A stretch of DNA of 64,000 bases, taken from the NCBI GenBank assembly GCA_937928555.1, contig CALFWR010000021.1:1-64000 (forward strand). Direction: 5' to 3'. Below, piece after piece: positions 224 through 21,624 of this stretch. How positions within the stretch are numbered: position 1 is the stretch's first letter; every line of letters begins with the position of its first letter. This stretch comes from an uncultured Pirellulaceae bacterium. GTDB lineage: Bacteria > Planctomycetota > Planctomycetia > Pirellulales > Pirellulaceae. The notes under the pieces were generated by a model. The model saw only the letters and a list, made by a program, of their open reading frames with translations. It searched no databases and had not been told where the DNA came from. Made by a program: the position numbers and the translations under genes.

Positions 224-385
224 TTTAAACGGAAGTCAAAGAAAAGACCGCAGGATTTCTCTGTTCCTCTGTGACGCTGTGTTTCCATGACAGCCGCGGC
301 ACGTTTGTTCGCTATAACTATGCGTTCATTTGATGATGTGAACCCGCACCGTCTGTGGACGCTCCAATCATTGCTTCCGCTCACA

Positions 386-419
386 ACAAGCAAACCGAAC
401 AAACAAGCAAACCGAACAA
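386..419 (+). repeat. Two tandem 17-bp repeats just before a start codon
   Basis: The 17-bp unit ACAAGCAAACCGAACAA occurs twice in a row (386-402 and 403-419), ending 5 nt before the ATG at 425. No Shine-Dalgarno sequence is visible between the repeat and the start, so the purine- and A-rich repeat forms the untranslated leader of the Hsp90-like gene. Confidence 0.8.
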
Positions 420-424
420 ACGTG

Positions 425-2248
425 ATGCCAAGCCAACACAATTTTCAGGTCAACATGAAGGGGATCATTGACCTGCTTTCCAATCACCTCTACAGCAATC
501 CGCAGGTTTTTGTCCGCGAACTGCTACAGAACTGCACCGACGCAATCGAAGCCAGACGCTTTGCCGAACCTGAACATGTCGGCACGATCGAGTTCGAAGT
601 CATCAAGGCCGCACCACCAAATGCGCCCACGCTGGTCATTCGTGACAACGGAATCGGGCTCACCGAAGCAGAAGTCCACCAATTCCTGGCGACCATCGGC
701 GAGTCCTCAAAAAAGGCAGCCGTCAACCGCGAGGATTTCATCGGCCAGTTTGGGATCGGATTACTTTCTGCTTTTCTTGTGTGTGAGGAAATCGTGGTCA
801 TCACCCGTTCCATCGAGCCGGATTCGACGACCGTTCAGTGGAAAGGCCGCTCCGACGGGACGTATTTGACTTCCACCATCGATCGTGATTTTGAGCCCGG
901 CACCGAAGTCTTCATTCGTGCCAAACATGGTTGCTTTGACTTTTTTGACTTCGATTTCATCGCCGACTCCGTGGCGCACTACGGCAGGTATCTCGGCCAT
1001 CAAATGACCGTTTCCTGCGGCGATCAACAGCAGCAGATCGAAGAAACGCCACCTTGGGCAATAAGCGGCACCAATCGCAACGAGCGCCGCGATGAGTTGT
1101 TGGAATTTGGCAGGCAATCGCTGGATCGCGAGTTTTTCGATGCAATTCCTGTCGTTTTGCCGGAGCTTGGAGTCGAAGGAGTCATCTTTGTTTTGCCGCG
1201 TGCTAACCGTTCGACTCGCAACCACCTGCATCAAATTTACCTGAAGAACATGTTGCTGACCGAATCGGTGGACAACCTGCTTCCGGATTGGGCATTTTTT
1301 GTGACCTGCGTTTTGAACGTTCGCCACCTCAGGCCCACCGCTGCCCGCGAGTCGTTCTACGAAGACGATCAACTTGCCGAAACGCGGCTTGAGTTGGGTC
1401 GGTTGCTGAAACAATACATGACCGAACTGGCGGAATCGGATCCCGATCGCCTCAGTCAGTTCCTCGCATTGCACTATCTTTCCATCAAGGCATTGGCCAT
1501 CGAAGACGATGACTTCTATGCGATTTTTATTGACTGGCTTCCGTTTGAAACCAACATGGGGCACATGACGCTTGCCGAGTATCAGCGGCTTTCATCGGAG
1601 CCCGTCAGTTACGTGGCGACCGTCGACCAGTTTCGCCAGGTTGCCAACGTGGCCGCGGCCCAGTCCCGGTGCCTGTTCAATGCGGGTTTCACCTACGACG
1701 CCGAACTGTTAGACAAGCTCAATAATCGCCCCGGTTCGTCGGGTTCGGAGTTGGTGGATCCGGGTGAACTCGCCCAAGAACTGGAGGAACTCAGTGAAGC
1801 CGAACAGGACAGGGTCGCCAGTTTGATCGAAACCGCCGGCAACGTGTTGGCTGAGTTTGAATGTGAACCGGATGTCCGCAAATTTGATCCCGCCGACTTG
1901 CCAGCCCTGTTGACGACCAATCGTGACGCAGGTTTTTTACGTAGTGTGGAACAGGCCAGGGAAGACGCTGACTCGTTGTTCTCCGACATTCTGGGGACGC
2001 TTGGTGATCAGGTCAAAAGCACCGCCCGGACGCAACTGTGCCTGAATTTTCGCAATGGCCTGATCCGGAAACTTGCCTCCGTCAGTGACGAAACCATTCT
2101 GCGGCAGTCGATCGAAATGCTCTACGTGCAGTCTTTGTTGCTGGGCCGGTTTCCTGTCACGCCCAACGAAATGCAGTTGTTGGGAAAAGGGATGTTGGGC
2201 ATGATCGAAGCTTCGCTTGACGCAAAAGACCAGGGAGGTAGCCAATGA
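425..2248 (+). CDS. Hsp90 (HtpG)-family chaperone-like ATPase
   Basis: The product has 607 residues. The N-terminal GHKL ATPase fold is clear: RELLQNCTDAIEA (N-box), DNGIGL (DxGxG), IGESSKKA and GQFGIGLLSAFLV near residue 105 match the Hsp90 nucleotide pocket. A middle-domain signature (ARESFYEDD, matching the SREx loop) follows. The protein is close to HtpG in length, but its C-terminal third does not obviously carry the dimerisation domain and it diverges from classical HtpG. The start at ATG 425 (MPSQHNFQ) is chosen because it fits the family N-terminus; the reading frame is open upstream to 287 but that part overlaps no recognisable domain. The stop overlaps the next start (ATGA), so the two are translationally coupled. 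A cytosolic folding or remodelling role is inferred. Confidence 0.88.
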   Translation: MPSQHNFQVNMKGIIDLLSNHLYSNPQVFVRELLQNCTDAIEARRFAEPEHVGTIEFEVIKAAPPNAPTLVIRDNGIGLTEAEVHQFLATIGESSKKAAVNREDFIGQFGIGLLSAFLVCEEIVVITRSIEPDSTTVQWKGRSDGTYLTSTIDRDFEPGTEVFIRAKHGCFDFFDFDFIADSVAHYGRYLGHQMTVSCGDQQQQIEETPPWAISGTNRNERRDELLEFGRQSLDREFFDAIPVVLPELGVEGVIFVLPRANRSTRNHLHQIYLKNMLLTESVDNLLPDWAFFVTCVLNVRHLRPTAARESFYEDDQLAETRLELGRLLKQYMTELAESDPDRLSQFLALHYLSIKALAIEDDDFYAIFIDWLPFETNMGHMTLAEYQRLSSEPVSYVATVDQFRQVANVAAAQSRCLFNAGFTYDAELLDKLNNRPGSSGSELVDPGELAQELEELSEAEQDRVASLIETAGNVLAEFECEPDVRKFDPADLPALLTTNRDAGFLRSVEQAREDADSLFSDILGTLGDQVKSTARTQLCLNFRNGLIRKLASVSDETILRQSIEMLYVQSLLLGRFPVTPNEMQLLGKGMLGMIEASLDAKDQGGSQ

Positions 2249-3330
2249 GCCATGCCGAAGTTGTTCAAATGTTGCTGGAGTCTGTCGATTGGGAGCACAG
2301 TACCCAGAAAGTTCACTTTCTTGAGGAAGCTGTCAAGCTCGCCGACGCCATTCCCGACCAGCACCTCGCCTACGAAGTGCGCATGGAGCTGGTTACCGCT
2401 GCCGAGTTTTCGGGTAACTACGACATTGCTTTTGTCGCTTACAGTTGGTGTCGCAATTATTCTCGCAATAATCCGGACAAGGTCGACTGGCAGTCGGTTA
2501 TTTGGCGGCTGAAGTGGATCGTCGATCTCGGGCTGCATGTTCCTTCAATCTCAAAAGCCCAGATCGAGGAGATGCTGGATGATCTGGAAACCAGCGTTAC
2601 CGACAACGGCTACAGCCCCAGACCTGCCCATGGATGTCGGGCCGCGATATATCGGTCAATGGGCATGCTGGACAAGGCCCGCGAGTATGGTGAAAAGTGG
2701 CTTGCATCCCCGCGTGACTCCATGACAGATTGCGAAGCCTGCGAAGTTCACAAAGACGTCCTTCTGAAGATCGCCTTGGGCGAAAGTCAGCGGGCGATTG
2801 AAATCGCCAGGCCGTTACTTGAAGGAGAGTTGAGTTGCACGACCAAACCCGAGGGAACCTATGGGGCGTTAATGATTCCCTTGCTTCGTTTGGGCGACGT
2901 TGAGCGGGCGATTGAACTGGCACGAATCGGCTATCCGATGATTCGTGGCAAGAAACTCTACATCTGGCAGCTCTCTGATTTCCTGCTCCTGCAAACGCGA
3001 ACGGGCCAGTGGGAGTTGGCGGTTGATAACTTCGATAGCACAGCCCGTGTCGTGGGAGAGGCGAACAGCTTTCAAGACCAATGTGATTTTTTTGTGGCCG
3101 CGACCGCACTATTGTCCGGATTCAACGACGTAGGAATCGAATCACAATCTTTGCAACTGCCCAAACACTGGGACTGCCATCGCAAAGACGGAATCTACGA
3201 TACGGCGGAACTGAGAACCTGGTTTGACGGCAAATCCGACGAAATCGGCCGGCAGTTTGATGCTCGCAACGGCACCGATCGGTTCGTCACCCGCAAGGCC
3301 GAGAAACTCGCATTGGCAAGCGGCAAGTGA
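2245..3330 (+). CDS. Helical-repeat (TPR-like) protein coupled to the Hsp90-like gene
   Basis: The product has 361 residues, no signal peptide and no membrane segment. The sequence is built of paired amphipathic helices with TPR-like spacing, for example the segments around DKAREYGEKWL, ESQRAIEIARPLL and GDVERAIELARIGYP. I cannot assign exact repeats by eye. It starts with ATG inside the stop codon of the Hsp90-like gene (4-bp ATGA overlap), so the two products are made together. In eukaryotes TPR proteins are classic Hsp90 partners, so a co-chaperone or client adaptor role is an attractive inference, but no EEVD-type tail was found on the Hsp90-like partner. Function is otherwise unknown. 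Confidence 0.75.
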   Translation: MSHAEVVQMLLESVDWEHSTQKVHFLEEAVKLADAIPDQHLAYEVRMELVTAAEFSGNYDIAFVAYSWCRNYSRNNPDKVDWQSVIWRLKWIVDLGLHVPSISKAQIEEMLDDLETSVTDNGYSPRPAHGCRAAIYRSMGMLDKAREYGEKWLASPRDSMTDCEACEVHKDVLLKIALGESQRAIEIARPLLEGELSCTTKPEGTYGALMIPLLRLGDVERAIELARIGYPMIRGKKLYIWQLSDFLLLQTRTGQWELAVDNFDSTARVVGEANSFQDQCDFFVAATALLSGFNDVGIESQSLQLPKHWDCHRKDGIYDTAELRTWFDGKSDEIGRQFDARNGTDRFVTRKAEKLALASGK

Positions 3331-3465
3331 GTGAGCCGGCAGCGGATCTGCCTGAAAGATTTTTCGCGTGGATTCTGAACCCGCATGGGAGCATTGGGGT
3401 CCTGTCGCTATATTTGCCGCGAAACACGAACACCAAAAACGAACATCCAAAAGCTGCCTTGTTCC

Positions 3466-15053: not shown

Positions 15054-15272
15054 TCAGTTCCAAACGCACAGCCCCTTCGGTTGTGAGTTCCAAACGCACA
15101 GCCCCTTCGGTTGTGGAAACGGTCGGTCGTCTGGCCACGATGGCTCAAACGGCGACGGCGCGGGCTTGGGGCGCGTCTCCGGCTTGGGCTCGGTTGCAGG
15201 TTTGACGTCGGGTTCAACTGTAGGTGTGTCTGGCATGGGAGAATTGATAGCTTCCGGCAGCAATTGAGTCAA
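15054..15272 (-). CDS. Possible small proline-rich protein, 72 residues
   Basis: The frame reads MTQLLPEAINSPMPDTPTVE and then a Pro/Lys/Glu-rich stretch (EPKPETRPKPAPSPFEPSWP), which looks protein-like. It ends in two identical SQPKGLCVWN-type units that come directly from the 30-bp tandem duplication. No ribosome-binding site is obvious and the frame was not recognised. It may be a short genuine protein whose tail was altered by the duplication, or a remnant. Confidence 0.3.
   Translation of the reverse strand: MTQLLPEAINSPMPDTPTVEPDVKPATEPKPETRPKPAPSPFEPSWPDDRPFPQPKGLCVWNSQPKGLCVWN
15056..15115. repeat. Perfect 30-bp tandem duplication
   Basis: The unit beginning GTTCCAAACGCACAGCCCCT occurs twice back to back (15056-15085, 15086-15115) with a difference only at the last base. 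It lies in a gene-poor stretch. Confidence 0.85.
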
Positions 15273-21438: not shown

Positions 21439-21566
21439 GTACTCAGTACTCAGTACTCAACCCCATTTCTCCGTCCGCCCTCGCCATTTCCGCACTCCGC
21501 ACTCCGCACTCCGCACTCCGCACTCCGCACTCCGCACTCCCCATTCCCCATTCCCCATTCCCCATT
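21439..21566. repeat. Cluster of three different heptanucleotide tandem repeats
   Basis: GTACTCA is repeated three times at 21439-21459, CCGCACT seven times at 21490-21538, and directly abutting it CCCCATT four times at 21539-21566. All have period 7. They are noncoding and lie 59 bp before the initiator tRNA. Confidence 0.95.
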
Positions 21567-21624
21567 CCTGCAGAAATTTTCCAAACAGGCCTCGACAAAG
21601 AATTCCGCCTCGCTATTATTTCGC

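Follow-up and report, generated by a model that had tools for sequence, protein, structure and literature searches.

Does a bacterial Hsp90 have a dedicated helical-repeat partner, in parallel with the Hsp90-TPR co-chaperone systems of eukaryotes? The question is raised by two overlapping genes near the start of the window, by which we mean the whole stretch of DNA analysed (64,000 nucleotides, bases 1-64000 of contig 21 in a draft host genome of 4.87 Mb rated 91% complete). Bacterial HtpG proteins have been split into Groups A, B and C (Chen 2006, PMC1525184), and the same source gives a length of 615 aa for HTPG2, the second copy of Streptomyces coelicolor, which matches the size of the Streptomyces members of NCBIfam family NF010683 found here. 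According to the available text of Press 2013 (PMC3708813), an obligate Hsp90 co-chaperone has not been identified in bacteria; hsp90B and hsp90C were ignored in that analysis.

NF010683 is probably the 'HTPG Group C' or hsp90C of these two papers (PMC1525184, PMC3708813), an assignment made by length and taxa and not by tree. The paired TPR gene is not mentioned in the available portions of either paper, and the literature searched yielded no description of the Hsp90-TPR pair. The Hsp90 family is known already; its pairing with a TPR family lacking a name looks undescribed. We report here that this divergent bacterial Hsp90 is almost always encoded with its own TPR partner across several distant phyla.

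The locus

The features of the locus are as follows, all on the forward (+) strand.

385..421, +: perfect 17-bp tandem array of 2.2 copies (AACAAGCAAACCGAACA) that stops 3 bases short of the Hsp90 ATG
425..2248, +: Hsp90-family ATPase, 607 aa, member of NCBIfam NF010683 (PRK14083 'HSP90 family protein'), by profile score, alignment and predicted fold
2232..2239, +: strong Shine-Dalgarno-like AGGGAGGT near the 3′ end of the Hsp90 coding sequence, separated from the partner ATG by 5 bases, read directly
2245..2248, +: ATGA overlap in the sequence, partner start plus Hsp90 stop; putative translational coupling
2245..3330, +: TPR-type helical-repeat partner protein, 361 aa, of a family without a name, by predicted fold and profile searches
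2731..2742, +: C163-C166 of the partner motif D162-C163-x-x-C166, each Cys in 53/54 aligned partners
2836..2838, +: C198 of the partner, in 53/54 aligned members
3256..3273, +: C-terminal F-D-x-R-N-G of the partner, with D339 in 51/54, R341 in 53/54 and N342 in 54/54 aligned members

The coordinates that the initial annotation gave for both genes are correct, and the ATGA junction that it described is found at 2245-2248. The Hsp90 open frame extends upstream to an ATG at 287; homologues begin close to the first residue of the protein that starts at 425. Among the named matches listed, those closest to the window Hsp90 are Planctomycetota records, and the nearest relatives are only about 50% identical.

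A tandem 17-bp repeat had been noted where a ribosome-binding site would be expected. It is indeed there, and no Shine-Dalgarno-like sequence precedes the Hsp90 ATG at 425. Such an array appeared in 0/10 first-order Markov copies of the window and in 0/2000 local resamplings. The unit, rich in A and C, is single in the genome when at most one mismatch is allowed, with two further places at two mismatches. It is possible that the repeat acts as an unstructured leader aiding ribosomes where a Shine-Dalgarno site is lacking.

Other short perfect tandem repeats also occur in the window. An imperfect array of 13 bp x 2.3 lies at 3422-3452, just 5′ of the next gene, which resembles a tyrosyl-tRNA synthetase as judged by eye; a perfect 30-bp direct duplication is found at 15056-15115, and a TCCGCAC heptamer array inside a 21-bp repeat at 21489-21568.

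The Hsp90 protein

Family membership. The window Hsp90 scores 700.2 bits against NF010683 (cut-off 455) over residues 3-602 of 607, and is thus a full-length member. It stays under the cut-off of the classical HtpG model NF003555 (176.1 bits versus 371, matching residues 4-574) and misses the gathering score of Pfam PF00183 (21.2 bits versus 24.4), and it passes that of HATPase_c_3, PF13589 (37.4 versus 25). A sequence search of the PDB gave human TRAP1 as the best match, with Escherichia coli HtpG aligned across residues 5-575. In PADLOC only its ATPase domain was matched, by TmtA models 1302-1782 positions long, with a top score of 45.9 bits.

ATP site. The Hsp90 alignment holds 48 sequences, 47 of the 80 Hsp90s from named loci (see below) plus that of the window. 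E32, N36, D74, G76, G78, G107, F109, G110 and G112 are invariant in all 48, as is the middle-domain R308, and T160 is kept in 47; the nucleotide-site motifs read earlier from the single protein are borne out by its relatives. We take the functional roles of these residues, R308 included, from Hsp90 biochemistry.

Fold. An AlphaFold2 model (pLDDT 88.0) has the N-terminal, middle and C-terminal Hsp90 domains. It matches full-length TRAP1, 7kcl_B, with Z 30.7 (533 aligned residues, rmsd 6.4, model residues 7-602), and can be aligned with full-length Hsp90s as far as residue 604. The initial annotation called the C-terminal third divergent, which holds for its sequence but not for its fold: the predicted model aligns with full-length Hsp90s and the family profile matches through residue 602, so this third is canonical in fold. 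Judged from alignment and model, ATP site, middle-domain arginine and three-domain architecture are all retained in the window Hsp90, which is predicted to be active.

Tail. Among the 48 aligned members the C-terminal tail varies and is unconserved, and none ends in EVD, the tail being of the EEVD type in 0/48.

Other copies. At the thresholds used, the genome of the window has no other Hsp90-type match, classical HtpG included, which answers whether a separate htpG accompanies the pair. Four genomes of the Planctomycetota draw described below (G018, G079, G107 and G164) each have another Hsp90-like match, at about 184-214 bits and below the cut-off. A tree in which 18 classical rows and 8 further Hsp90-like ones were included separates the paired Hsp90s as a single clade with support 100/100, subject to a long-branch warning.

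The partner protein

The AlphaFold2 model of the partner is an all-helical solenoid (pLDDT 96.5, pTM 0.91). Its best structural match is domain III of MalT (1hz4; Z 23.3, 314 aligned residues, rmsd 4.8), and APC/C subunits, NprR, Rap and LGN are also among the best. The earlier guess of a TPR-like protein was therefore right at the fold level. The window partner reached no Pfam TPR gathering score, the best being 18.9 bits against 23.5, nor did it match any solved TPR co-chaperone by sequence, and PADLOC gave no match for it.

For the alignments, only partners of at least 300 aa that no contig end truncates were used, which 70 of the 76 from named loci are; 53 of these and the window protein make up the 54-member alignment. 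One row (L044) was a different gene and was removed before model building. At E up to 0.001, no NCBIfam model matched any of the 54 members, and no single Pfam TPR model matched more than four of them; the family is without a Pfam or NCBIfam model of its own. Together with C198, the conserved CxxC may make up a site for metal binding or redox chemistry. Actinomycete partners are much longer, about 660-1080 aa in all, through a long C-terminal extension; in the one scanned, from Streptomyces globosus, the extension has TPR matches by Pfam.

Gene order and copy number

Named loci. These are the best 80 of at least 565 confirmed loci and hence a biased sample; the genome draws below are the fairer test. 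They come from Planctomycetota, Myxococcus/Corallococcus, Acidobacteria, Flexithrix, Tenacibaculum, Undibacterium, Desulfobacterales, Paenibacillus and other Bacillota, and many actinomycetes. In 76 of these best 80 of at least 565 loci the partner gene is the immediate downstream neighbour of Hsp90, in the same orientation. One of the same 80 has it convergent to Hsp90 (L098) and three have no nearby partner: at L073 the contig ends near Hsp90, in Flexithrix (L087, genome G207) the partner is elsewhere in the genome, unlinked, and at L088 it is on another contig of apparently the same genome, G164. Different contigs carry the two genes in G164 and in G018, and in G107 they are 8 kb apart on opposite strands. 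The six plasmid-collection records with the same gene order comprise three from Streptomyces, one from Paenibacillus and two from Listeria.

Spacing. Among the relatives in these best 80 of at least 565 loci, the commonest overlap is 4 bases (28/76), followed by 1 base (19/76), with small gaps favoured because the partner start was set to the candidate nearest the Hsp90 stop. No open reading frame fusing Hsp90 and partner domains was found among the best 80 of at least 565 loci.

Copy number. Tandem partner pairs occur in Listeria and in two further genomes (G047, G531), a second copy lies close by at L115, and six genomes (G199, G216, G218, G219, G223 and G226) each carry the partner family two or three times, judged by strong matches, which suggests that one Hsp90 may serve several adaptors there. 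In Listeria (L058:5312-10613) the Hsp90 gene is preceded by fri on the opposite strand and followed by the two tandem partners, then by an SMI1/KNR4 family gene. From its position beside fri (PMC3534079), lmo0942 appears to be the Listeria member of the Hsp90 family; in the available text of two papers, PMC3534079 among them, it figures only as a cloned fragment or as an entry in a list of heat-shock genes.

Neighbours. Sequence clustering showed no third gene family common across phyla within 8 kb, so the Hsp90-TPR pair seems to stand alone, although such clustering can miss weak families because shadow open reading frames of GC-rich genomes are mixed in. A reading of the pair as a defence system is unsupported, with nothing specific in PADLOC and no third gene across phyla.

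Co-inheritance. Hsp90 and partner distances correlate with r 0.88 over 71 pairs (the 70 partners plus the window). When partners were permuted within taxonomic groups, all 1000 of 1000 permutations fell below this value, the maximum being 0.663.

Co-occurrence across genomes

Three genome draws were searched for both families. In Planctomycetota, Hsp90 exceeded the NF010683 cut-off in 7/199 genomes and the partner was present in the same 7, a pairing confirmed by a partner profile search of 198 genomes. In Actinomycetota the Hsp90 was found in 7/198 genomes with the partner in the same 7, one further genome (G400) having the partner alone, and in Bacillota both were found in the same 4/249. 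Pooled over 646 genomes this gives 18 with both, 1 with Hsp90 only, 1 with the partner only and 626 with neither, weak partner matches (about 18-24 bits) in six Planctomycetota, three Actinomycetota and three Bacillota genomes being scored as absent. The sole genome with Hsp90 only (G191, Planctomycetota) carries two fragments of Hsp90 and lacks the partner. The Fisher p for co-occurrence is 8e-33, and 3e-28 when the three centre genomes are left out. The partner adjoins 9/9 Hsp90s over the cut-off in the Actinomycetota draw and 4/4 in the Bacillota draw.

The pair nearly always occurs together (18 genomes with both, 1 with each alone). A helical protein living mostly apart from the ATPase, or one devoid of a TPR-like fold, would have told against the initial annotation; neither outcome appeared, Hsp90 being present in 18/19 genomes with a strong partner match and the predicted partner fold being of the TPR type. 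The partner family travels almost only with NF010683-type Hsp90, usually overlapping or abutting it.

Related clades and unpaired partners

A second, divergent clade of Hsp90-like proteins was seen at three loci (L065:4902-9143, L190:3683-8076 and L191:6368-11205), scoring about 260-293 bits to NF010683. Downstream of each stands a long TPR-type protein of its own, 764-946 aa in length and with a C...CxxC motif. An hhalign comparison of the window partner family with the second-clade partners gave P 9e-4 but a probability of 22%, one side being represented by only three sequences; a common origin of the two kinds of partner is a suggestive lead only. A broader reading, which we consider rather unlikely, would have the Hsp90-TPR partnership predate eukaryotes, with this clade and the Pseudomonas aeruginosa/L190/L191 clade perhaps descending from one ancestral operon, and would make it the first obligate bacterial Hsp90 co-chaperone system, its adaptor responsive to redox state or metal.

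More distant Hsp90-like proteins were also seen. At L186:1420-7607 (G181) a protein of 872 aa shows a match to an anti-phage TIR model (29 bits) in its C-terminal part. Three proteins of 383 aa are encoded in tandem behind it, and the single one that was scanned is TPR-rich. On a Pseudanabaena plasmid (L064:4222-9804) an 877-aa Hsp90-like protein has a TIR-domain protein as its neighbour, and the second gene downstream codes for a TPR protein.

Partner-family proteins apart from Hsp90 were seen twice: in the actinomycete genome G400 (L192:5804-9013), which has no NF010683-type Hsp90, and in an Actinomyces oris plasmid record (L063:5938-8973), where no Hsp90 of this family neighbours the gene and a YbjN-domain gene lies near.

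Interpretation

On balance we favour the view that the two genes encode a dedicated, ancient bacterial pair of Hsp90 and TPR co-chaperone, whose proteins would bind each other directly. The Hsp90 dimer would go through the usual clamp cycle driven by ATP. Its TPR partner would bind it, likeliest at the middle or C-terminal domain and not at an EEVD tail, there either presenting a defined set of clients or tuning the ATPase. The overlapping genes and the strong ribosome site within the Hsp90 end would hold both proteins at a fixed ratio; the presence of AGGGAGGT before the partner ATG, against none before the Hsp90 ATG, fits such coupled translation. The tandem or extra partner copies of some genomes would provide more than one adaptor per Hsp90. 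Several findings speak against this view: the unlinked genes of G164, G018, Flexithrix (L087/G207) and G107, the two genomes with one gene alone (G191 with Hsp90 fragments, G400 with the partner), the absence of a fused open reading frame among the best 80 of at least 565 loci, and the unconserved Hsp90 tail. TPR solenoids also have many kinds of binding partner, so that a co-chaperone role does not follow from the fold by itself.

The pairing and the fold uphold the proposed parallel with eukaryotic Hsp90-TPR systems, and the missing tail limits it: because 0/48 Hsp90 tails are of the EEVD type, the eukaryotic EEVD-TPR clamp is not copied here, and with the tail absent in 48/48 it is ruled out as the docking mode.

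Alternatively, the TPR protein could be a dedicated client, a helical-repeat protein doing the actual work of sensing or scaffolding that is folded or assembled by a private Hsp90. One-to-one pairing and gene overlap would also fit a private chaperone and its substrate, signalling TPR proteins (MalT, NprR, Rap) are among the top structural matches, and the far longer actinomycete partners (about 660-1080 aa) have a length that an effector might have. We nevertheless judge this arrangement unlikely. Hsp90s usually have several clients, the partner is downstream in nearly all loci (76 of the best 80 of at least 565), and the short partner is a bare solenoid with no evident output domain.

Somewhat less likely still is that both proteins serve one pathway, for example in stress or defence, without contact, the operon merely coordinating their expression. 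The setting of the distant Hsp90-like relatives beside TIR-type and TPR genes (L064, L186), which resembles an immunity module, speaks for it; against it, no common cross-phylum third gene was seen within 8 kb, PADLOC gave no match for the partner and matches the Hsp90 to TmtA in the ATPase domain only, and pairing is near-obligate in three genome draws. Chance adjacency or an annotation artefact, in whose favour there is nothing further than that bacterial genes are often close together, is highly improbable and is rejected by the 76 of the best 80 of at least 565 loci, in distant taxa, by the Fisher p of 8e-33 and by two confidently predicted folds.

As a gene pair conserved across distant phyla, the two genes are a concrete candidate for a bacterial Hsp90 co-chaperone. 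If the proteins bind and the TPR protein changes the ATPase or the clients, TPR co-chaperoning of Hsp90 would not be a eukaryotic invention, and a system of just two small components would lend itself to study more readily than its eukaryotic counterpart.

Comparison with known systems

Classical HtpG (NF003555/PRK05218) has the ATP site and the three-domain fold in common with the window Hsp90, which differs in lying below the NF003555 cut-off and in belonging with the other paired members to a separate clade. Mycobacterium tuberculosis HtpG, likewise a bacterial Hsp90, is reported in the available text of PMC10269695 to bind another protein, DnaJ2, but this is a J-protein belonging to the Hsp70 system and not a dedicated TPR protein encoded with the chaperone. 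In eukaryotic Hsp90 with Hop, FKBP51/52 and PP5, an Hsp90 is again partnered by a TPR solenoid; there the chaperone has an EEVD-type tail, found in 0/48 members here, and a set of TPR co-chaperones is shared, whereas here the system is one gene pair.
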